Assembly: GCA_016285515.1 (NCBI GenBank)
Contig: JAEEQW010000004.1
Coordinates: forward strand, 1-64,000
Source of the DNA: Bacteroidales bacterium
Lineage (GTDB): Bacteria > Bacteroidota > Bacteroidia > Bacteroidales > BM520
Direction: 5' to 3'
Length of the DNA stretch: 64,000 nt
Under the pieces are notes generated by a model. The model was not told where the DNA came from. It was given only the letters and a program-made list of their open reading frames with translations, and searched no databases. The position numbers were made by a program, and so were the translations under genes. Positions within the stretch are counted from its first letter, which is position 1, and the number at the start of each line of letters is the position of its first letter. Of this stretch, positions 1-10,016 are shown piece by piece.

Positions 1-245
1 GAGCAAGGCTCTGAGTTTCAATCCACGCGCCCGCACGGGACGCGACCAGAATTTTAACCTGGACTACGCATTCAAGGAGAGTTTCAATCCACGCGCCCGC
101 ACGGGACGCGACTCCTTCGGTGGGATGGTAATTCGGTGCAATATTGTTTCAATCCACGCGCCCGCACGGGACGCGACAAAGTTTGCCACGAGGGTGCGAT
201 TTCCAGATACCGTGTTTCAATCCACGCGCCCGCACGGGACGCGAC
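1..245 (-). CRISPR. Type I-C CRISPR array (partial, leader-proximal end)
   Basis: Four identical 32-base repeats lie at 15-46, 81-112, 146-177 and 214-245, separated by spacers of 34, 33 and 36 bases. A partial spacer fills 1-14, so the array continues beyond the left edge. Read on the minus strand each repeat begins GTCGC and ends ATTGAAAC, the form known for type I-C repeats, and holds an internal GC-rich hairpin (CCCG-TG-CGGG inside CGCG arms). This puts transcription on the minus strand, the same as the cas genes, with the repeat at 214-245 first after the leader. In I-C systems Cas5 cuts the transcript at each repeat hairpin to give crRNAs with an 11-base 5' handle. No repeat degeneracy is visible in this part. 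Confidence 0.98.
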
Positions 246-414: not shown

Positions 415-705
415 TTAAATAACCAATTCCGAAGTGACATCATACGAAGTCACCTTCCCTACCATTTCAATACGATTATTCCAATTGTTACCCATAAAAT
501 AGTAACGGACACTATCCTTCTCAGCATCAATAATGGCAGAAAGCCGATTTTTCAAAACAACAAATTGAGCTTCTGTCAAAACACACTCAAAGACAGAATT
601 CTGAACTCTTTGCCCATAATTTTGGCATTCCTTAGCCACTTTTCTTAACCTTCGGGCACCCGATGATGTTGTAGTCTCAACATCGTATGTAACCAAAACC
701 ATCAT
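415..705 (-). CDS. cas2: Cas2 adaptation endoribonuclease-fold protein
   Basis: 96 residues, normal for Cas2. The N-terminal strand MVLVTYDVET followed by GARRLRKVAKECQNYGQRVQNSVFEC is the ferredoxin-like Cas2 fold with the usual acidic residue after the first strand. Cas2 dimers bridge two Cas1 dimers in the spacer integration complex. The gene starts 3 bases after the cas1 stop and is the last cas gene before the leader and array, the usual I-C order. The doubled ATG at the start leaves a one-codon uncertainty. Confidence 0.97.
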   Translation of the reverse strand: MMVLVTYDVETTTSSGARRLRKVAKECQNYGQRVQNSVFECVLTEAQFVVLKNRLSAIIDAEKDSVRYYFMGNNWNNRIEMVGKVTSYDVTSELVI

Positions 706-708
706 ATC

Positions 709-1731
709 TCAGTGAATTATAAAAACAGGATAATCATCGATATCCCCTCTAATTGCCCGAGCGAGCAACAATGCCTGCACATAGGGCAAAAGGCCTATTT
801 GTATCTTCTCTTCCAAAAAAGGATGTACTATAGTTTCCGATTTCCTCTTCTGCCACGCAGAAAGAACTGTCTTACGACCGCCCTCCGTCAGCAACACCAT
901 GTCCTCTCCTGATTCGACAAAATCCATTGCGGTCAGCTGTTTTCGGTTAATGAGCGACAACACTAACCTATCCCCCAAATAAGCTCTCAGCTCTTCCATC
1001 AAATCCAACGCAAGAGACGAGCGTCCTGGCCTCAGTTTATGCAAAAAACCAACATAAGGGTCCAACCCAACCGTCTCCAAAGCTGAGGCTGTTTCGTTTG
1101 CCAGCAATGTATAAACAAAAGAAAGTAATGCGTTTACTTTATCTTTAGGTGGATGACGGTTTCTTCCATGAAAAGCGAAATCCTCCTGCTGATGAAGAAT
1201 CATCCTATGGAAAACTCCAAAATAAGAATTGGCAGCATCACCTTCCACCCCAATGAGTTGCGATGAATCTTCGGTATGCATAGCAACACGTTTGCTCGAT
1301 TCCAGCATCTTCACGACGGCATCCAATTCACCATCATCGCCATTGTCTCGAATATGACGTTGAAGAATAGTTCTATAATTCTGAATCTTCCCCGCAATAA
1401 ACAATCGGGCATAATGCATAGAACGTTCATCGTCTTCAGAAATTTGGTATTGTGTTTTTCGCAACAATACATTCCCTCGAACTGGACCTTGAAGTCGACC
1501 CACGAAATGACCACTAGGCGAAAGGAAAGAGAGAGATACTCCGTTATCAGCACAAAGTCTCATCAGTCCTGGGCTTGCCCCCATGTAGCCGAAGGTTACA
1601 ATACCTTCAATATTCATGACGGGAATACGAAATAACTCTTCCTTGTTCACGGACACCACCACATTCAACCCGTCCTTTGAAAGATAAGCATCTGGTGTGG
1701 TTACATAAAGTGTATTAAGCAATTTCCTCAT
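709..1731 (-). CDS. cas1: Cas1 spacer integrase, type I-C
   Basis: 340 residues, full length. The N-terminal beta domain (about 1-90) is followed by the helical catalytic domain. The metal-binding residues are recognisable as the Glu in GVEGDAANSYF, the His in GFLHKLRPGR and the acidic pair in LDLMEELR. Cas1 with Cas2 inserts new spacers at the leader end of the array. The start overlaps the end of cas4 by 17 bases and the stop is 3 bases from cas2, so cas4-cas1-cas2 form a tightly coupled adaptation module. No missing catalytic residue was seen. Confidence 0.98.
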   Translation of the reverse strand: MRKLLNTLYVTTPDAYLSKDGLNVVVSVNKEELFRIPVMNIEGIVTFGYMGASPGLMRLCADNGVSLSFLSPSGHFVGRLQGPVRGNVLLRKTQYQISEDDERSMHYARLFIAGKIQNYRTILQRHIRDNGDDGELDAVVKMLESSKRVAMHTEDSSQLIGVEGDAANSYFGVFHRMILHQQEDFAFHGRNRHPPKDKVNALLSFVYTLLANETASALETVGLDPYVGFLHKLRPGRSSLALDLMEELRAYLGDRLVLSLINRKQLTAMDFVESGEDMVLLTEGGRKTVLSAWQKRKSETIVHPFLEEKIQIGLLPYVQALLLARAIRGDIDDYPVFIIH

Positions 1732-2389
1732 TGAAAGATTTCTTTAGATAATAAGCCACAGTAGTTTTTTTGGTCAATACTGGCGAACAGATATCAAAAA
1801 GCGAACAGTTTTTACAACCTCGTTGCGGCACAGCTTGTGGAGTGATTCCACTGTCAAATGTCTTATGCATAGCCTCGCTCAATTCGCATGTCAACCGCCG
1901 AAGCGGTTCATCCATAGCAACGACCTCACGACGATGGGTTTCAAAATAGAATAAAGCCGCTTCGGAAATTTGAATTCCATACATTTCTTCAAGACACATA
2001 ACCTGTGCCGCCAATTGAACGGTATCCCTCTCGTCGGGTTTCTGATGCCCACGTTTGTATTCCACAGGGTATGGTTTCCAAAAACCAAAATACTTGGGAT
2101 GCGTAATTGTATTTTCTTCCGTATTGGACGGCAACAATTCTATAGCATCACAAATCCCATATAAGCCTAAAGTATGAGAAGCAACATGTACGCCACGTAA
2201 AGTTATTGTATCACCATTCTTCTGGCGATAAGCCGAATTGTCAACATTCTTGTGTAGAATCTCCCCCTCAGCAGTCAACCGGTTGTCAGCCCATTGCTGT
2301 TCGACATGAATCAACGCCCATTGGCGGGGACAGAACATATAGTGCTGAATCCCCGACAGCATGAGCATCTGATCATCATCGTACATCAT
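1715..2389 (-). CDS. cas4: Cas4 PAM-selecting exonuclease
   Basis: 224 residues. A cysteine near the N-terminus (MFCPRQWA, about residue 20) and the C-terminal cluster GCKNCSLFDIC provide four cysteines for an iron-sulfur cluster, and YPVEYKRG with the preceding acidic residues is the RecB-type nuclease motif. In type I-C, Cas4 trims prespacers and helps choose those next to a proper PAM. It overlaps cas1 by 17 bases. Its start lies 4 bases after the stop of the RhuM-family gene, so it depends on transcription through that gene. Confidence 0.97.
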   Translation of the reverse strand: MMYDDDQMLMLSGIQHYMFCPRQWALIHVEQQWADNRLTAEGEILHKNVDNSAYRQKNGDTITLRGVHVASHTLGLYGICDAIELLPSNTEENTITHPKYFGFWKPYPVEYKRGHQKPDERDTVQLAAQVMCLEEMYGIQISEAALFYFETHRREVVAMDEPLRRLTCELSEAMHKTFDSGITPQAVPQRGCKNCSLFDICSPVLTKKTTVAYYLKKSFNEEIA

Positions 2390-2393
2390 ACTG

Positions 2394-3437
2394 TTATTCC
2401 TTTATATCTGTGCCTTCTTCTTCAAGCGGCAATGCACCAAAAAATTTATCGAAATCACTTTGGAACAGACGGTCTTGCACGATTCGGTACTTTTCAAACT
2501 CCGTTTCCGCATGAAGCACAGCATCTTCGTGACTCACACTCCCGGCATTGTCAAGCAGAGGTCGCTCATCGCTGGTCAAATAGGCATCAATACGCTTGGC
2601 CCAGTCCTCCATTGTCATCGGGATGTGCTTCTTGGCACGGTTTTCGGCAAATTCCAGCACTGCGGTAACAATATGTCCCATATCCTCCAGTTCCATCTGT
2701 TTCAGGTAGTTTTTGGCAATTGAGACATCGGTCTTAACAATTTTCCCGTCAGGAGCATTCTCCCATGTGGTCAATCCCATGTGTTCCTTGTCGGCATCGG
2801 CCCGTTCCATTATCAGTTCCGCCGCTGTTCTGCCATGTACTGCATAGTGCATCTTGTTCTGCACCATTTTGAAGAATAGCCTGGTCGTGGGCGCATCGCG
2901 ATTGTAGTCTATTGCTGTGGCATAGATGTCTGTCAGTTTCTGGTAGAAACGCCGTTCCGAGAGACGAATCTCGCGTATCTCAGCCAGCAAGTGCTCAAAA
3001 TAATCCTCTCCCAAGAATGTACCGTTCTCCATGCGTTTCTTGTCAAGCACATAGCCACGTATGGCAAACTGGCGCAGTACACTCGTCGCCCATTGCCGGA
3101 ATTGTGTGGCGCGGATGCTGTTTACACGGTAGCCTACAGCGATAATGGCATCAAGTTTATACATCACCACCGTGCGTTTTACCTCACGGTTTCCTTCCTG
3201 CTGAACTGTTTCCATTTTGGAAATAGTTGCCTCTTCCTTCAGCTCACCCGTCTCGAACACATTGGCAAGATGCTTGCTGATGGCAGGCACTCCCACATCG
3301 AAGAGTGCCGCCATCGCTTTTTGTGTACACCAAATGGTTTCATCAGCATACATTACCTCGATGCCCTGTTCCTTATTCTCAATCTGGAAAATCAGGAACT
3401 CCGCCGTGCTATTTCTTATCAAACGTTTTTCTGCCAT
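2394..3437 (-). CDS. RhuM-family protein embedded in the cas operon
   Basis: 347 residues, complete. The N-terminal part (about 15-135: TQKAMAALFDV, AISKHLANVFETGEL, YKLDAIIAVGYRVNSIRA, ATSVLRQFAIRGY) and a long helical C-terminal part (DVSIAKNYLKQMELEDM, MTMEDWAKRIDAYL) match the layout of the virulence RhuM family, named after a Salmonella pathogenicity-island gene and without an established biochemical role. The N-terminal half looks like a DNA-binding module of the kind seen in phage antirepressor-like proteins; that is inference. Gaps are 6 bases to cas7 and 4 to cas4, so it is almost surely co-transcribed with them. It is not a standard I-C gene. Hand counts of GC are higher here (33 of 60 at 2581-2640, 31 of 60 at 2881-2940) than in two sampled stretches of the neighbours (20 of 60 at 5881-5940, 22 of 60 at 8401-8460), which suggests a separate origin. 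Confidence 0.9.
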   Translation of the reverse strand: MAEKRLIRNSTAEFLIFQIENKEQGIEVMYADETIWCTQKAMAALFDVGVPAISKHLANVFETGELKEEATISKMETVQQEGNREVKRTVVMYKLDAIIAVGYRVNSIRATQFRQWATSVLRQFAIRGYVLDKKRMENGTFLGEDYFEHLLAEIREIRLSERRFYQKLTDIYATAIDYNRDAPTTRLFFKMVQNKMHYAVHGRTAAELIMERADADKEHMGLTTWENAPDGKIVKTDVSIAKNYLKQMELEDMGHIVTAVLEFAENRAKKHIPMTMEDWAKRIDAYLTSDERPLLDNAGSVSHEDAVLHAETEFEKYRIVQDRLFQSDFDKFFGALPLEEEGTDIKE

Positions 3438-3443
3438 TGTTGG

Positions 3444-4286
3444 TTAAATCATCTCTTCAACGGACACACCATCTGGAAGATTGTTTTTGTCAATAGTAAT
3501 TTTGTAATCTTCAAAAGAGCGAGGAAAAACCACATTGTCTTTTTTCTCAATCTTCACGAGGTCAAATAATTGTGAGGAACGGGCATTGCCTAATTTCGAT
3601 TCGTGTTTAAACACGATTAGCGCACGGGCATTCATCTCGCCACGAGCTGCGGCATGGTCATGCTCAAAAGCGTTCATAAGAGCTTCCCACAAAAGATTCA
3701 AATCCTCTTCTGTAAAATGACACTTCTCTCCGTCAAATGCAGAGACATAGCCGTGCATACGATAGAGTCCATAGCTGACGGTTGATTTGTTGCCGAATGT
3801 GTTCACTTTGTCAGCATCCTTTTCATCAGTAATACAGCATCTCGTCAAGGAATGTGTTCGACTATCTATAGCATCAATGCTGCGAGAGAATACAAATTGT
3901 ACTGGTCCTCGCACAACTCCCAAGTCATTGCCAGTACTTAACACGGCTCCAAATGTGCGAATATCGAAGTAGCGGTCGCACAAAGCCATCCTTCCCTTTT
4001 TTTCATCATTTTCCGATTCTTCTTTTCCTTTGTTAATGATGTTGTTTAGTATGTTCCCTTGTCGAATGAAGATGTCGTATTTACTAGAATCGAGTTCGCC
4101 AGCCTCGACCTTTAAGTGAACATAATTACGCACCTTACGTTTGATACACACATCTGACACAAGACCTTCTCTCGTCTCAAAATCAATTCTCGGTTGATTA
4201 TCCATTTCTGGATCACCATTGGGATTTCCGTCCTTCACATCATAAAGGAACACGAAATCATACCTGTTTTTAATGTATTGCTCCAT
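3444..4286 (-). CDS. cas7c: Cas7 (Csd2) Cascade backbone subunit, type I-C
   Basis: 280 residues, usual for Csd2. The N-terminus FVFLYDVKDGNPNGDPEMD is the signature of this RAMP subfamily, followed by DVCIKRKVRNYV and a C-terminal region with LIVFKHESKLGNARSSQLFDLV. Several copies of Cas7 coat the crRNA and form the Cascade backbone. It follows cas8c with a 15-base gap. The gene after it is not cas4, as usual, but the RhuM-family gene. Confidence 0.97.
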   Translation of the reverse strand: MEQYIKNRYDFVFLYDVKDGNPNGDPEMDNQPRIDFETREGLVSDVCIKRKVRNYVHLKVEAGELDSSKYDIFIRQGNILNNIINKGKEESENDEKKGRMALCDRYFDIRTFGAVLSTGNDLGVVRGPVQFVFSRSIDAIDSRTHSLTRCCITDEKDADKVNTFGNKSTVSYGLYRMHGYVSAFDGEKCHFTEEDLNLLWEALMNAFEHDHAAARGEMNARALIVFKHESKLGNARSSQLFDLVKIEKKDNVVFPRSFEDYKITIDKNNLPDGVSVEEMI

Positions 4287-4301: not shown

Positions 4302-4667
4302 TTAATTAGTACTTTCTGCGGTGTCTTTTTTGTGGTTTTTTTGGAAATAATAGCCCAAAGCAAACTCACCTTGCTCAATGGCTGAAAACCGTTGGGGGAA
4401 ACATCCATTTTCGCTAATTTTCCCTGCAATCTCATTAAGTTCATTTGCCAGATAACCACCTATCTTGCGTTGATAGATAGTTACATTCTTCGTCAATAAT
4501 TGGCCAAGGATGTAAGCAGGCTGCAAAACTGCTGCCGCAAAGTACCGCTCCTTGACCCCACTATTAACATTACCCATAGCCTTCCACTGCATTGATTCAA
4601 TGACAGCGAACAATCTGCCACACAAGTAGGCTACGCTTGTGTTGCTTTCATCCAATGTTGATTTCAT
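4302..4667 (-). CDS. cas11c: Predicted Cas11c small subunit from an internal start in cas8c
   Basis: Type I-C systems are known to make a small subunit from an internal start in cas8c. An in-frame ATG at 4667 gives a 121-residue product beginning MKSTLDESNTSVAYLCGRLF, directly before the helical block that corresponds to Cas11c (LFAVIESMQ, AAVLQPAYILGQL, YLANELNEIAGKI, FSAIEQGEFALGYYFQ). The size fits known Cas11c proteins. No Shine-Dalgarno site is visible, which is normal in Bacteroidetes. Product and start are inferred by family analogy. Confidence 0.55.
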   Translation of the reverse strand: MKSTLDESNTSVAYLCGRLFAVIESMQWKAMGNVNSGVKERYFAAAVLQPAYILGQLLTKNVTIYQRKIGGYLANELNEIAGKISENGCFPQRFSAIEQGEFALGYYFQKNHKKDTAESTN

Positions 4668-6452
4668 ATTCTTGTCTGTATTACGATTAATAATCAATTT
4701 TATGAGCGCAGCTCGCTCTGTTGAAAAGTAGTCTCCTTTCCATATTCGGATTAGAACACTTTGCAAGACTTCAAGTGGAAGCTTATTAGAGCTTCCTTTT
4801 ATAATTGCATTCCATAACAAGGCGCCCATTCTAGCCTTGGAATTGAGATCGGCTTTAGACTTGTCTCCGAGTTTTTTATCACGCTGAGTTGCATTTATTA
4901 ACATCCTCAAAGGACTATACACTAGTTCTCCATTATTGTTTTCTATTTCAATATCTCTAAACCACTCAGCTAGGTTCTTTTTGTATTCATCCAAACTGAT
5001 GGCAGTCCAATCACGAACAGCGATGCGGGCGGCAGCCGATGACAAGGTACAACTATAAAACATATTGGTGTCAACCGTGGAACCGAGATTCTTTTTACCG
5101 CTCCAAACAGACTCAAAAAGATTCTTCACCCACAAGGCCTCTGGTGAGTCAGCAACGATCAAAGGGTTGATGTCTTCAACATCTTGTCTTGTCCAAAACA
5201 CAGCTACTGTTGTATCACTAATATTAATCCTATGATTGTATTCATAATGCGCTTTTTGCTTTTCATTTCCAATAATCTCACGCCCATCAGACAGAAGAAA
5301 ATTCAATCCCTCGATATAATTCCTAGCACAATCTCGGCAAATCGATGAATTCAAATTACCTTTCAATCCGTAGGATTCAAAAGCATTTTCATTGAATGAA
5401 ACTAAAGCACAGCCTGCTGTTTGTCCCTTCGGCATTTTTACTAATCCGTGCGGTTCATCTAATACGGGACTATCTGATTTACCACAAACTGAACATATTC
5501 TTCCATTGGAAAGCTTTTGCTCATTGTCTTGGTAATGCCTGATAATGGAGGTTCTGACTTCATCTGTTTTCAATAGAACAGTATCTCCCATTACCATGAA
5601 TGTTATATTATCACTAAATGAATCCTTTGTAAATCGGAAAACAGATTCTGAGATTGCTTTTTTTAAGCCATTCTCATTGCTTTCTTCGTAGAATTTGAAC
5701 ACGGGCTCTATGTTGGGTAATCCCTCCCTATATTGTTGCAGCTTATTCAAGAACCACTGATGCTTTTTGTCTACACCCACTTCTGTAATGCCAAGAACAT
5801 CTTCATCCCTGCCCAGTAACAAATATGTCTCTTTTTTCTTGGCAGAGATTGTTTCTGTTAGGACAGACTGATTGTCATTAACAATAAACCCTTGAAACTC
5901 TCCATTTTCATTAATAACAATTGCAAGGTTGAAGAAAGCGACTTTTAAAGACATACTTTCACCCTGCTTTGTCTTTTTTTGTTTCTGTTCTTGGAGATAT
6001 TTGTTGATGGTCCCCTGTACTTCTTCCGTTGCCAACAGCATAGTAGAACCAATCATAAAGGTGATATTTCCACCCTTATTCCCATCGCTTAAGTTCAAGT
6101 ATTCGACAACGGCTTTTCTTAGTCCATTTAAATTTTGTTTTTCATAGAATTTAAAAATAGGCTTAAAAGATTTTACATCCTTATACGGCTCAAGTCGCTT
6201 TTTGAATGCTTCAAGTTTACCGACATCAACACTAACACCAAGAACCTCCTCGCTCTTATCAAGCAGAAAACGAGCTTTCCCCTTTTTAGCCGTTATGACT
6301 TCCGTCTCAACAGGCTGTCTTTCACCAACAATAAATTTTTGATACTGACCTTCTTTATCAATAACCAAAGTAATAGAGTAGTTTTCTTCTTTGAGGGCTC
6401 TATTTTTACCTTTTGTCACTCGCTTTCCAAATTCCACCAATTCCTGTATCAT
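4302..6452 (-). CDS. cas8c: Cas8c (Csd1) large subunit with duplicated N-terminal domain
   Basis: 716 residues, longer than the roughly 550-620 expected for Cas8c. The extra length is explained by two tandem diverged copies of the N-terminal domain, residues about 25-157 and 174-308. Each copy shows in order a strand pair (QKFIV / QGFIV), TEVITAKK / TETISAKK, a VLG turn, a PIFKFYE / PVFKFYE block with NGLRKA / NGLKKA, and NITFM ending in LLATEEV / LLKTDEV. Then come a four-cysteine site (CSVCG near 320, CRDC near 372) and the usual C-terminal half, including the Cas11c-like helical end. Cas8c recognises the PAM and recruits Cas3; the N-terminal region contributes to PAM contacts. The stop overlaps nothing; the start overlaps cas5c by 4 bases (ATGA). 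No frameshift was seen, so the protein looks functional. Confidence 0.95.
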   Translation of the reverse strand: MIQELVEFGKRVTKGKNRALKEENYSITLVIDKEGQYQKFIVGERQPVETEVITAKKGKARFLLDKSEEVLGVSVDVGKLEAFKKRLEPYKDVKSFKPIFKFYEKQNLNGLRKAVVEYLNLSDGNKGGNITFMIGSTMLLATEEVQGTINKYLQEQKQKKTKQGESMSLKVAFFNLAIVINENGEFQGFIVNDNQSVLTETISAKKKETYLLLGRDEDVLGITEVGVDKKHQWFLNKLQQYREGLPNIEPVFKFYEESNENGLKKAISESVFRFTKDSFSDNITFMVMGDTVLLKTDEVRTSIIRHYQDNEQKLSNGRICSVCGKSDSPVLDEPHGLVKMPKGQTAGCALVSFNENAFESYGLKGNLNSSICRDCARNYIEGLNFLLSDGREIIGNEKQKAHYEYNHRINISDTTVAVFWTRQDVEDINPLIVADSPEALWVKNLFESVWSGKKNLGSTVDTNMFYSCTLSSAAARIAVRDWTAISLDEYKKNLAEWFRDIEIENNNGELVYSPLRMLINATQRDKKLGDKSKADLNSKARMGALLWNAIIKGSSNKLPLEVLQSVLIRIWKGDYFSTERAALIKLIINRNTDKNMKSTLDESNTSVAYLCGRLFAVIESMQWKAMGNVNSGVKERYFAAAVLQPAYILGQLLTKNVTIYQRKIGGYLANELNEIAGKISENGCFPQRFSAIEQGEFALGYYFQKNHKKDTAESTN
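5529..6380 (-). repeat. Tandem duplication coding the Cas8c N-terminal domain
   Basis: The first copy is coded by about 6380-5982 and the second by about 5933-5529, joined by a 16-residue lysine/glutamine-rich linker. Similarity is clear at protein level (shared VLG, FKFYE, NGL-KA and NITFM blocks at the same spacing) but not at DNA level, so the duplication is old and both copies have been kept in frame. Confidence 0.85.
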
Positions 6453-7186
6453 AACTCTGCCTCCTCTTCTTTATATTGTTCGTAAACGACACGGTTATAA
6501 TCATCTGAAACCTTTGGTTGGATGTGTGTTGATGACAGCATTTTGATGGCATTGTCCTCTGGACATTCAAGCACTCCGTTTACAATAGCAACATCATAAA
6601 AAAACACAGGAGTAGCCTTACCTTTGTCATCATAAAACATATCATAAAACATACTTCCTATAGGATAAGTGACATCCAATGGCACATCATGCTCAGTAGG
6701 CAAAGAGAAGTCAGCAGCAAATTCTCTTGTCCCAAAACAAGGCTGATGCCAGCATTGCCCTTTCTTTACCCTACGCTCAAACATTGTGCGGTATTTCTTA
6801 ACTGTTATTGGATGTTCGCTGTTTTTGGTTTTTTCAATAAGAGTCTCATTTACATTAACCGATGCCTCTATGATATAGCCCACATCCTTCAATACAATGC
6901 TATTCCGCTGAACTCGATTCTCTGTAATATCTATCGGTTCACCCTTTGGATTCTGCTTCTTGGAAATTTCGTTCCTCTTTATTGAAGTGAATTTTATTGG
7001 ATTCAAAATGATAATTTTCCTAATAAACCACTGGAATTCTGGCTTCCAAAGGATGGATTCCAGAATGCCTCGCGCTGCTGACGGGGTCATACATGGATAG
7101 CTCATGCGCTCCACCTTCAAGTCGGGGCGCGTAAAACAGGCAAAATCGCCCGTTACTTTCAGTCTAACAATCTCTTTGTCAAGCAT
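6449..7186 (-). CDS. cas5c: Cas5c (Cas5d) crRNA-processing subunit
   Basis: 245 residues. The N-terminus VRLKVTGDFACFTRPDLKVER and the following PSAARGILESILW are typical of Cas5d, and FERRVKKGQCWHQPCFGTREF is the conserved C-terminal block. In type I-C, which lacks Cas6, Cas5 itself cuts the CRISPR repeat and stays on the 5' handle in Cascade. No cas6 gene is present in the window, in agreement. The stop overlaps the cas8c start by 4 bases, and cas3 ends 12 bases upstream. Confidence 0.97.
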   Translation of the reverse strand: MLDKEIVRLKVTGDFACFTRPDLKVERMSYPCMTPSAARGILESILWKPEFQWFIRKIIILNPIKFTSIKRNEISKKQNPKGEPIDITENRVQRNSIVLKDVGYIIEASVNVNETLIEKTKNSEHPITVKKYRTMFERRVKKGQCWHQPCFGTREFAADFSLPTEHDVPLDVTYPIGSMFYDMFYDDKGKATPVFFYDVAIVNGVLECPEDNAIKMLSSTHIQPKVSDDYNRVVYEQYKEEEAEL

Positions 7187-7198
7187 ATCTGTCTTCTC

Positions 7199-9391
7199 CT
7201 ATATTACAAAGTTAAATTCGTCCTTAAATGGCAGCCCAAAGTCTCTATCGTATGAACCATACCAAATCAAAACACCGCTTGGCTCATGGCCGATAAGTGT
7301 ACTATTTTCCTTAAGGAACTTATCATAAACCTGAACACAATACTGCGAAATCTCTTGGCGTTCTCGTTTGGTTATATATTCTTCGTTTTTCAATTGATTG
7401 TATAATTCTTGGCTCTTTTGATTATAGGTATATACGAAGATGGACTGTGTATTGTTGTTAATTATCTTGTATTTATCCGCAATAGTCTGGAACAAGAATT
7501 TCTTTCTGTCCGCTGTAATATCCAGTTTATCTGTGTCAGCAAAGTTTTTAACAAGTTCTCTGTAATAGTAACTATAGAAATCGTGAGTATACAGTTTTCC
7601 TTCATTCCCTTTGTAAAGCATATTGGCAAACTCCAACCATGAACGATATTCTTTGCTTGGCTGGCCAGATTCTGTCAGTGCGAACAAATAGACATCACCT
7701 TTGATCAAACTCCCATTTTCATCCTTTAATTGTCCCTCTCGGTTGCATCGACCCGCCGACTGAATGATGGATTCCAAAGGTGCCAATTCCCTATATACCG
7801 TTGGAAAATCCATATCGACACCCGCTTCGATGAGTTGGGTGGAACTGACAATGATACGTTTCCCCTCCCTCAATGCCTGACGAATATTGGTTATAACCTC
7901 TTTTCTATGCGCAGGACACATATTAGTAGAAAGATGGAATAAATAATAATCGTCACATCCTTTCATCTCCTCAAAAAACAATCGGGCTTTCTTCTTGGTA
8001 TTAAAAACGACAAGAGCTGACTTGTTGCTTTCTGATACAATATCCGCTAATTCTGACACTGCTATTTCTTCATATTTATTCAGCGGATGGTAGGTTACTC
8101 GCCTTGTTTCTTCAAAAATGAGCTTGGGGTTTTCAACCAATGATTCTATCTTGCTTACTCCCTGAAACCCTTCTCTATCTTCAAAATCAGGTTGAGTAGC
8201 CGTACAGAACAACATGCTACATCTGCAAAGTTTTTGCAAATTATCCAGCATGGTCAGTGTCGGCTCAGTAACATTCAGAGGCAGCGTTTGTATCTCGTCA
8301 AAAATGATGATTGAATCTTGAATATTATGCAACTTTCTGCAAGCAGGCCTCTTATTGTCAAAAAGGGACTCAAAGAATTGTACGGAAGTTGTGATAATTA
8401 TGGGATAGTCCCAATTTTCCGTTGCCAATTGTTTGGAATTGTATTCATCTTTATCCTCATTTTCCGTATAAATCACATTAGAATGATGTTCAAGCACAAA
8501 ATCGTCCCCCTCATCTTTATTGAATATAGTCTTAAACACCTCTGCTGTCTGGTCAATGATGCTGATAAACGGCAAGACTATAATAATCCTCTTTATGTTC
8601 TTGTGATGTTGCGCGTGGTGCAATGCCCAATTCATACTGCAAAGGGTCTTTCCCAAGCCTGTAGGTAGGGTCAAAGAAAAGAATCCTTGTGGTAGAGAAG
8701 CTTTTGATTCCGCATATTTACGAACATTGTCTCGCAATTGAGCTATTATTGAAACGCCTTTTTCCTGATTATTTTGGAAAGATTCAAACTTCTTTCGCAG
8801 CTTGTTTAACAACACTTCTGTGTTTAGAGGGCAATTCTTTCTTGCTTCAAACTTGGTTTCATCAAAATGTCTTTCCGTATCAAGACTGTCAGCATCAACG
8901 AGAGAACTGTATAACATCCTGACAAATAGCTCTTGCTTTAGAATGTCCGTCAAGTCTTGAAACTCTTTATCATTCGGGATATTAAGTTTTTGTCCTATAT
9001 CCTCCTTCCATACTCTGCATATTTCACCATACGGACTATCATCCATATTTTGTTCTGCCATAATATCTTGTCGCATTTTTGGATTGTCTGGCAACCCGGC
9101 ATGATGTCCAAACACCGGAAAAACGACCTCCATCAATGATTGTTCTTTGGCGAAGATGGCTCCATAAATAGAATGTCTGACTTGATTGTTTTCCCCAGTA
9201 ATATGCTTTTGGAAAGCATCTGAATACTTACCAATATCATGAATGAGTCCACAAAACTCGTACAAATCTTCAAACGATTCTGACAAGGCAAATTTTCGGG
9301 TAAATGCACCTACGCCAGAACTATGTTCCTTCATCGTTTGCTTTTTGCCACTTGCGTTTTCAGAGTGAGCAATGTATTCTTTGTGTTCCAT
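7199..9391 (-). CDS. cas3: Cas3 helicase-nuclease with fused HD domain
   Basis: 730 residues. The N-terminal HD nuclease domain (about 1-200) shows EHSSGVGAF, LIHDIGKY, RHSIYGAIFA and FGHHAGLP. The helicase core follows: Walker A TLPTGLGKTLCSM, DEAD-box variant FDEIQTLP (usual in this subtype), FCTATQP, and motif VI with QSAGRCNREG after TQLIEAGVDMDFP. Cas3 is recruited by Cascade to unwind and degrade target DNA. All expected motifs are present, so the separate HD gene just upstream is not needed to supply a missing nuclease. It ends 12 bases before cas5c. Confidence 0.97.
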   Translation of the reverse strand: MEHKEYIAHSENASGKKQTMKEHSSGVGAFTRKFALSESFEDLYEFCGLIHDIGKYSDAFQKHITGENNQVRHSIYGAIFAKEQSLMEVVFPVFGHHAGLPDNPKMRQDIMAEQNMDDSPYGEICRVWKEDIGQKLNIPNDKEFQDLTDILKQELFVRMLYSSLVDADSLDTERHFDETKFEARKNCPLNTEVLLNKLRKKFESFQNNQEKGVSIIAQLRDNVRKYAESKASLPQGFFSLTLPTGLGKTLCSMNWALHHAQHHKNIKRIIIVLPFISIIDQTAEVFKTIFNKDEGDDFVLEHHSNVIYTENEDKDEYNSKQLATENWDYPIIITTSVQFFESLFDNKRPACRKLHNIQDSIIIFDEIQTLPLNVTEPTLTMLDNLQKLCRCSMLFCTATQPDFEDREGFQGVSKIESLVENPKLIFEETRRVTYHPLNKYEEIAVSELADIVSESNKSALVVFNTKKKARLFFEEMKGCDDYYLFHLSTNMCPAHRKEVITNIRQALREGKRIIVSSTQLIEAGVDMDFPTVYRELAPLESIIQSAGRCNREGQLKDENGSLIKGDVYLFALTESGQPSKEYRSWLEFANMLYKGNEGKLYTHDFYSYYYRELVKNFADTDKLDITADRKKFLFQTIADKYKIINNNTQSIFVYTYNQKSQELYNQLKNEEYITKRERQEISQYCVQVYDKFLKENSTLIGHEPSGVLIWYGSYDRDFGLPFKDEFNFVI

Positions 9392-9437: not shown

Positions 9438-10016
9438 CTACGCCTTTCCTTCAAATACGTTACAATAATCGAACAAATAGCCCCACTTGGTTCGTCCATG
9501 AACGCTACTGCCATACCCTTCGCATACTCTACCCATATTCTTGGCATACTCAAACAGCTTGCTTGAGCCTACAAACAGCCTACCATCTCCGAGGTAACAG
9601 CCTGCTAGACCTATGTTAGTCCGAGTCAATTGTGTCACCAACGGTGTCACAATCTCCAAATCCTCAACATAATCACAATAGTCATAGAGCCCACGATGGT
9701 GACCAGCAATAGGTTGTGCAATCAATGGAGCAATCTGAGGATACTGTTTTTGCACAATGACAGCTCCAACGTAAGAGTGATTCGGTCTGCTTTTTATATG
9801 CGAGTATTCCTTGCTATATCCTGTGACACCTTGAATATACTTTTGCCATTCTACTTGCTCTTTTCCCTTGTCATGCAAACGTCCCATAAGCTTTCCATAA
9901 TCACCCATACCAAACTCAGCAGCAAAACTTTCGGCCCTCTCTGCAACGCCTTGTTGGTGGTCTGCGTTAGATTGGACTGCCATGTCAGACTGTCGTATAT
10001 GTGATATGATTTCCAT
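9438..10016 (-). CDS. Stand-alone HD-domain protein, Cas3''-like
   Basis: 192 residues, first gene of the cas operon, 46 bases before cas3. The first two thirds match a Cas3 HD domain motif by motif: NADHQQGVAERA, RLHDKGKEQ, NHSYVGAVIV and AGHHRGLYD, equivalent to EHSSGVGAF, LIHDIGKY, RHSIYGAIF and FGHHAGL in the neighbouring Cas3. The metal-binding residues appear intact. The last 60 or so residues (from about VTPLVTQLTR) were not recognised. It is either a working second HD nuclease or the kept front part of a broken second cas3; no helicase remnant is visible in the 46-base gap. It is not part of the standard I-C set. Confidence 0.8.
   Translation of the reverse strand: MEIISHIRQSDMAVQSNADHQQGVAERAESFAAEFGMGDYGKLMGRLHDKGKEQVEWQKYIQGVTGYSKEYSHIKSRPNHSYVGAVIVQKQYPQIAPLIAQPIAGHHRGLYDYCDYVEDLEIVTPLVTQLTRTNIGLAGCYLGDGRLFVGSSKLFEYAKNMGRVCEGYGSSVHGRTKWGYLFDYCNVFEGKA

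Follow-up and report, generated by a model that had tools for sequence, protein, structure and literature searches.

A RhuM-family gene recurs as an optional element at the cas7–cas4 junction of type I-C CRISPR operons

Introduction

RhuM proteins form a common bacterial family for which we know of no established function. Published work already places their genes in R-M loci (PMC3710099) and within a type II-C CRISPR locus (PMC5704556). In the first of these settings RhuM-like genes, frequently as fusions to DOC, neighbor R-M and PrrC-like genes, and RhuM has been proposed to be a protein-modifying toxin (PMC3710099, Biol Direct 2013). As in the operon described here, RhuM then lies inside a defence locus; however, that locus is R-M and not CRISPR, and the accessible part of that paper describes no CRISPR placement of RhuM. 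For the type II-C system of Bacteroides fragilis the authors report RhuM ORFs between cas1 and cas9 (PMC5704556), likewise a case of RhuM-domain genes within a Bacteroidales CRISPR-Cas locus. It differs in being Class 2, in the slot occupied and in having two ORFs, and the available text mentions it in passing. RhuM is named once among toxins in Pseudomonas islands in the accessible text of PMC12629846, and a coupling of immunity to suicide has been proposed as a general hypothesis (PMC3506569). RhuM is absent from the main text of a paper on Cas4 (PMC5704561), and in the open-licence literature we found no description of a RhuM gene preceding cas4 in operons of type I-C or I-B.

We have analyzed a 64,000-nucleotide stretch (the window) of contig JAEEQW010000004.1 (assembly GCA_016285515.1) from a Bacteroidales bacterium, in which a RhuM gene lies within a type I-C operon. 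The arrangement is real and repeated, and this makes the function of RhuM testable. The reading that we favor, with a probability of about 0.45, is that RhuM is a DNA-binding, defence-type gene sufficient by itself, an optional and co-expressed accessory that belongs neither to Cascade nor to the adaptation complex. We rank it above four others, in which RhuM would be a mobile passenger, a guard, an adaptation cofactor or a transcriptional regulator.

A RhuM gene within a complete type I-C operon

The gene order on the minus strand of the window is cas3–cas5–cas8c–cas7–RhuM–cas4–cas1–cas2, and a CRISPR array begins beyond cas2. On this strand cas3 lies at 7199..9391, and belongs to an interference lineage that we name ICa. 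It is followed by cas5c (6449..7186), cas8c/csd1 (4302..6452, 716 aa), cas7 (Csd2 of type I-C, 3444..4286), cas4 (1715..2389), the I-C cas1 (709..1731) and cas2 (415..705). The end of the array, with four repeats, occupies 13..245, also on the minus strand, and the contig begins within it. The I-C models TIGR03640, TIGR02589, TIGR01863 and TIGR01876 (Cas1c, Csd2, Csd1 and Cas5c) all score over cut-off, and with the cas order and the nearby array they identify the operon as complete type I-C. Each of the three spacer cores gave 0 exact matches in viral contigs. The N-terminal region of Cas8c is duplicated in tandem, the copies being 39% identical over 147 aa, and among 16 relatives aligned only that of locus L066 matches the window Cas8c over nearly its full length.

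The RhuM gene runs from ATG to TAA at 2394..3437 on the minus strand, and encodes 347 aa. Re-measurement bears out the initial annotation, which had placed a complete RhuM gene between cas7 and cas4 on the cas strand, with gaps of 6 nt upstream and 4 nt downstream. This tight spacing, which the annotation had taken to mean co-expression, is an operonic fit. RhuM is probably co-transcribed with the cas genes and translated from their transcript. A Bacteroidetes-type promoter pattern has four matches in the window, where 2.15 would be expected; none is directly upstream of RhuM, and the pattern is uninformative here.

The protein matches PF13310 (Virulence_RhuM) with E = 3.9e-107 and 357.7 bits (gathering cut-off 33.7), residues 70-323 aligning with positions 1-249 of 252 in the profile, and it is the sole PF13310 match in a genome that is 98% complete. 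Its best match in PADLOC is the candidate family PDC-S05 (E = 4.3e-153, residues 1-334, profile 1-332 of 342), which is listed with neither mechanism nor description. There was no match in NCBIfam at E 0.001. At the same threshold Pfam reported PF13310 alone, and RhuM is therefore not Bro-N (PF02498) by Pfam.

The GC content of the RhuM gene is 0.481 and its GC3 is 0.54, compared with a GC3 of 0.35-0.42 for the seven cas genes and 0.48-0.51 for folC, dnaE and proS, which are housekeeping genes of the window named by eye. The composition of RhuM is thus near that of the chromosome, and it is the cas genes that are AT-rich outliers. Arrival from elsewhere, earlier suggested by a higher GC, finds no support here, and the argument from composition for a foreign origin is rejected, the GC3 being near that of three host genes.

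Recurrence at the cas7–cas4 junction

The closest 80 RhuM genes were taken with their flanks from a longer list of GTDB matches, and cas genes were sought in these loci with the window I-C proteins only, so that other CRISPR types could escape. RhuM follows cas7 of a I-C operon in 12 of these 80 closest listed (L042, L044, L045, L046, L047, L049, L050, L060, L063, L066, L069 and L071). The next gene is cas4 in 11 of the 12, and L046 has a cas4 match of 26 residues only. In one further locus of the 80 (L053) the operon is type I-B-like, with cas6, a DevR-type cas7, cas3, cas4, cas1 and cas2 as well as an array; Pfam does not recognize its cas5 and cas8. Here 112 nt separate RhuM from cas3 upstream, and 17 nt separate it from cas4 downstream. 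The other 67 of the closest 80, some with short flanks, gave no match to the window Cas proteins. A script reads the RhuM frame as open from ATG to stop in 79 of the 80 loci, and inspection by eye shows the remaining one to be open too.

Type I-C operons were also sampled blind to RhuM. Csd2 scored over cut-off in 15 of 393 genomes of the order, and RhuM is at the junction in four of the 15 (the window, L127, L129 and L133). In the family of genome G330 the corresponding numbers are 22 of 399 and four of 22 (L311, L312, L313 and L322). Two of 71 genomes in the family of G318 have a I-C system, that of L129 with RhuM and the other without. Across the phylum Csd2 was over cut-off in 44 of 395 genomes, and one of the 40 loci fetched has RhuM (L197, 44% identical to the window RhuM). 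RhuM was thus not found in 11 of the 15 order genomes (one of which, L128, has no cas4 after cas7), in 18 of the 22 genomes of the G330 family and in 39 of the 40 phylum loci. Nor was it near any of 34 lower-scoring Cas7 loci of the order that were fetched (35 listed), many of which end at contig ends. RhuM is a recurrent minority feature that is optional and not a core I-C component, in agreement with the first impression that it is no regular member of such operons.

Nineteen window-type operons were read: the window, the twelve listed above, L127, L129 and the four from the G330 family. In every one of them RhuM begins exactly 6 nt after the cas7 stop, although the cas7 genes of these operons form two lineages that are ~53% identical. 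In L133, where RhuM is 50% identical to that of the window, the gap is 12 nt. In the RhuM-less relatives compared, cas4 lies close behind cas7. L309 provides a natural empty site, in which cas7 and cas4 touch and cas4 is 79% identical to that of the window. The absence of RhuM from most I-C samples, together with this clean empty site, indicates that CRISPR needs no RhuM. Recurrent but optional occupancy, with an empty site in a close relative, also offers natural with-and-without pairs for testing RhuM function.

The same junction is occupied in other operons, including ones sampled regardless of RhuM, and the arrangement therefore exceeds chance. For the order, 99 genomes contain 78 RhuM matches that are near-complete (E up to 2.2e-98). 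With less than one per genome, chance placement at one given junction is unlikely, although this probability is blurred by shared descent and by the insertion hotspot described below. The initial annotation had left it to a survey whether RhuM near cas7 and cas4 is confined to a single strain cluster. It is not, for it occurs with two divergent interference lineages, in the I-B-like locus and in the distant genome of L197.

The junction is an insertion hotspot

A census of inserts covered the window, 14 loci from the order sample and 40 from the phylum sample (55 I-C loci in all), taking as an insert at least 250 bp between two neighboring reading frames. Inserts are present at 16 of 50 readable cas7–cas4 junctions, whereas the five other junctions have them in 3 of 228 cases (Fisher p = 8e-11, or 4e-10 without the window). 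The cas7–cas4 junction of I-C operons is thus an insertion hotspot.

The inserts are of unrelated kinds. Bro-N genes of ~280 aa are found in L188 (7246-8085), L205 (7191-8033) and L212 (2329-3162); they lie in the slot of RhuM, on the cas strand and adjoining cas4, and no RhuM is present there. L196 has a Bro-N fragment, recognized by eye. DUF559 occurs in L191 (5650-6078; no RhuM) and by resemblance in L194, and IS200 transposases occur in L121 and L195 and by resemblance in L196. On the opposite strand there is a PIN gene in L198 (5786-6229; no RhuM), with another by resemblance in L199, and HicA in L123 (2707-2946; no RhuM), with a remnant seen by eye in L126. Every full-length RhuM or Bro-N insert that was read is on the cas strand and adjoins cas4. 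Upstream of RhuM in L197 there is a 70-aa frame that is Bro-N-like by eye and has no Pfam match.

These observations bear on a serious rival to the favored reading, that RhuM is a mobile passenger. It would be a dispersed single gene, like Bro-N, DUF559 or IS200, lodged in an insert-tolerant recombining seam and having no CRISPR role. The census and the unrelated kinds of insert are what this would lead us to expect. The common strand and the contact with cas4 of the full-length RhuM and Bro-N inserts, and a 6-nt gap without exception in the window-type operons, are not, and we place the passenger second, below the favored reading.

The toxin-like HicA and PIN genes at the same junction of other I-C operons are consistent with a different role, that of a guard. 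By analogy with PrrC and PrrI, RhuM would be a toxin restrained by Cas proteins and freed when a phage blocks CRISPR. Such a role would accord with the published toxin proposal, made for RhuM beside R-M and PrrC-like genes and often fused to DOC (PMC3710099), and with the general hypothesis of coupled immunity and suicide (PMC3506569).

Exchange of interference modules at the junction

The window-type RhuM operons have interference modules of two lineages, ICa, which is that of the window, and ICb. All trees were quick trees. In that of Cas7 the two form separate clades (SH-aLRT 100 and 98), and ICa and ICb proteins are ~27% identical for Cas8c and ~35% for Cas3. The trees of Cas1, Cas4 and RhuM mix them. 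The RhuM tree has 91 rows, with values under 80 on 30 of its 88 inner branches. In it the ICa and ICb labels cluster no more than shuffled labels, and at least 13 changes between CRISPR-linked and lone, as a raw count, are required for 18 CRISPR rows.

Upstream of the intact cas3 lies an ORF of 192 aa (9438..10016, minus strand). Its first ~125 residues are Cas3-like, with 117-123 residues 72-75% identical to the ICb Cas3 of L044, and this part is 28% identical to the window's own Cas3. Such a remnant of an ICb Cas3 N-terminus was found in the window only, among six ICa-type operons compared. The ORF is the trace of a replacement of the interference module. RhuM sits at the seam where interference modules exchange. 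Both the swap trace and the mixing of interference lineages in the RhuM, Cas1 and Cas4 trees, which for RhuM is no less than for shuffled labels, are consistent with a passenger.

The trees also bear on the possibility that RhuM is a cofactor of adaptation, capturing or protecting DNA ends made by Cas3 and helping Cas4–Cas1–Cas2 to make spacers. RhuM lies 5' of cas4 in both I-C and I-B-like operons, and in a sample of 30 rows Cas1 from the 14 window-type RhuM operons falls into a single clade (96), as does Cas4 (93), across both interference lineages, as might be expected of such a cofactor. However, a single clade of RhuM-carrying adaptation modules was not upheld by a 48-row Cas4 tree that takes in RhuM-less operons of the blind samples. 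Here RhuM-bearing and RhuM-less modules are interleaved with at least six changes, three of them forced by starred branches, and the RhuM-less L309 is nested among RhuM-bearing modules. Lone copies of RhuM have no adjoining adaptation genes, which also counts against a cofactor, and we think this role improbable.

Selection and copies away from CRISPR

Sixteen RhuM copies that are at least 88% identical to the window copy give dN/dS values of 0.028-0.049 against it; these are rough, with pS of 0.62-0.72 and synonymous sites near saturation. Nine of the copies are in I-C operons, one is in the I-B-like operon and six (L041, L043, L048, L051, L052 and L054; 89-93% identical) are away from cas genes found by our queries, with 435 bases upstream only in the case of L052. 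Strong purifying selection in CRISPR-linked and lone copies alike indicates that RhuM is an old and functional protein, and the same selection in the lone copies indicates a function independent of CRISPR.

The existence of such close copies away from cas genes, under the same selection, argues against Cas proteins as a required antitoxin. Coupled with the lack of a prominent enzyme fold (below), this makes a guard unlikely. More broadly, the readings first offered for this gene, as an ancillary effector, a regulator of adaptation or a guard on the cas genes, are all weakened by these copies, and by the collection of unrelated genes at the junction. RhuM copies in housekeeping regions and the number of near-complete matches in the order are in favor of the passenger, whereas the very low dN/dS and the occurrence of less than one near-complete RhuM per genome are against it. 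All the points against it would be compatible with upkeep for reasons other than CRISPR.

Lone RhuM genes are surrounded by housekeeping regions or assorted genes, and no neighbor away from cas is as frequent as the I-C genes. In three loci (L080:1446-1811, L118:11039-11770 and L119:2530-2907) the gene just downstream of a lone RhuM, 7-14 nt from it, belongs to a ~125-aa family that is a possible partner. A Bro-N-type family is found within three genes of RhuM in four loci, and an AAA-like family within five genes in five. By Pfam, 43 close same-strand neighbors include four RhuM, two of AAA_15/AbiEii type, two Fic and two Bro-N, with single GmrSD, Eco57I and PDDEXK_3 and housekeeping proteins. 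RhuM was found in 124 plasmid records, a type I methylase being overlapped in five among 30 matches listed, and in 51 phage records, of which 22 are named Streptococcus and two Wolbachia. Streptococcus satellite phages and Wolbachia phage WO carry RhuM (e.g. MK448384 and AB036666).

The predicted fold of RhuM

An AlphaFold2 model of the whole protein (87 sequences) has a pLDDT of 77.9 and a pTM of 0.54, and one of the C-terminal domain alone (85 sequences) has 89.5 and 0.78. RhuM is predicted to comprise a winged-helix-like N-terminal domain (~29-128) and an all-helical C-terminal domain (~144-334). The best structural match is DdrC of Deinococcus radiodurans (PDB 7qvb, 8u0g and 7udi), in which the two domains follow in the same order as predicted for RhuM. 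DdrC is a protein that binds broken or damaged DNA. It takes ranks 1-5 in Foldseek with the whole model (E = 2e-3 to 1e-2, with probability 0.99 at E = 2e-3) and the top three places in VIA, with Z = 7.9-8.1 over 170-188 aligned residues, where a Z near 8, higher for helical bundles, can mean a common arrangement without kinship. The rmsd is 14-16 Å, as if the domains were placed differently in the model. The N-domain of DdrC (8u1j) matches the RhuM model with Z = 6.6 and an rmsd of 3.6 over 90. With the C-terminal domain alone three DdrC entries come first in VIA (Z = 7.4-7.6, rmsd 2.2-2.9 Å over 79-98 residues), whereas Foldseek gives nothing firm, DdrC being at rank 5 (E = 1.1) behind nuclear receptors. 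Neither for the whole model nor for this domain do the Z values of DdrC exceed the level regarded as safe in VIA.

In sequence no similarity to DdrC was found when profiles were compared with solved chains. One sequence search of solved chains at E up to 1 gave eight unrelated chains, the best at 0.48, and the single chain from a second search, with E up to 10, was unrelated as well (0.83). No enzyme fold is prominent for the C-terminal domain among the Foldseek and VIA matches listed. Viral proteins labeled Bro-N, KilA-N and antirepressor are among the fold matches of RhuM, and residues 23-121 weakly match the antirepressor profile phrog_2011 (E = 0.0023), which is also matched by the junction Bro-N of L212 (E = 1.2e-6). 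This hints at a distant link between RhuM and Bro-N. The junction genes are nevertheless Bro-N by Pfam where RhuM is not, and the resemblance is confined to the N-terminal region.

FadR follows DdrC in VIA for the C-terminal domain at Z = 5.7, the FadR and NanR rows together spanning 4.8-5.7. These rows, and the antirepressor-type matches, might suggest a transcriptional regulator that acts, by means of its winged helix, on the cas operon or on stress genes, and whose helical domain is like the ligand-binding domain of FadR or NanR. The FadR rows fall below DdrC, however, and regulation of cas would leave the copies away from cas operons unexplained; we consider a regulator very unlikely. A DdrC-like predicted fold would suit a cofactor of adaptation, the improbable role discussed above.

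A proposed second layer of defence

In the reading that we favor, RhuM most likely acts by itself, while seated between the interference genes and cas4–cas1–cas2. The predicted winged-helix domain would bind DNA, and the helical domain, DdrC-like in its predicted fold, would dimerize or clamp damaged or broken DNA. RhuM could then respond while invader DNA is replicating or being cut, and would be a second defence layer produced together with CRISPR. DNA binding, lesion binding, a role in defence and transcription together with the cas genes are what we infer for RhuM from these data.

In support of this we count the constant 6-nt gap, the slot before cas4 in L053, the divergent RhuM proteins of L133 and L197, the dN/dS values and the open frames. 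We also count the placement in a candidate defence family (PDC-S05), the DdrC-like fold and the matches to Bro-N, KilA-N and antirepressor proteins. Against it are the frequent absence of RhuM, the empty site in L309, the unrelated inserts of the junction, a DdrC match with Z near 8 and an rmsd of 14-16 Å, and the proposal of a toxin (PMC3710099).

A more specific and bolder possibility, which we hold to be unlikely, is that RhuM is a DdrC-like binder of DNA ends and belongs, with the Bro-N genes of other I-C operons, to a new class of Bro-N-like DNA-binding accessories on the adaptation side, for which a position before cas4 is the mark. Its members would catch breaks made by Cas3, or prevent repair by the host, and in this way let fragments reach Cas4–Cas1–Cas2. 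If true, this would explain the convergent placement of RhuM in I-C and I-B-like operons.

As a hotspot of insertion and recombination, the I-C cas7–cas4 seam is a place to seek further accessory genes. L127 has ~1.6 kb of extra DNA between cas3 and cas5, and in L134, L210, L211, L213, L215, L326 and L327 the match to Cas7 is split in two, as would be expected of an insert within the protein.
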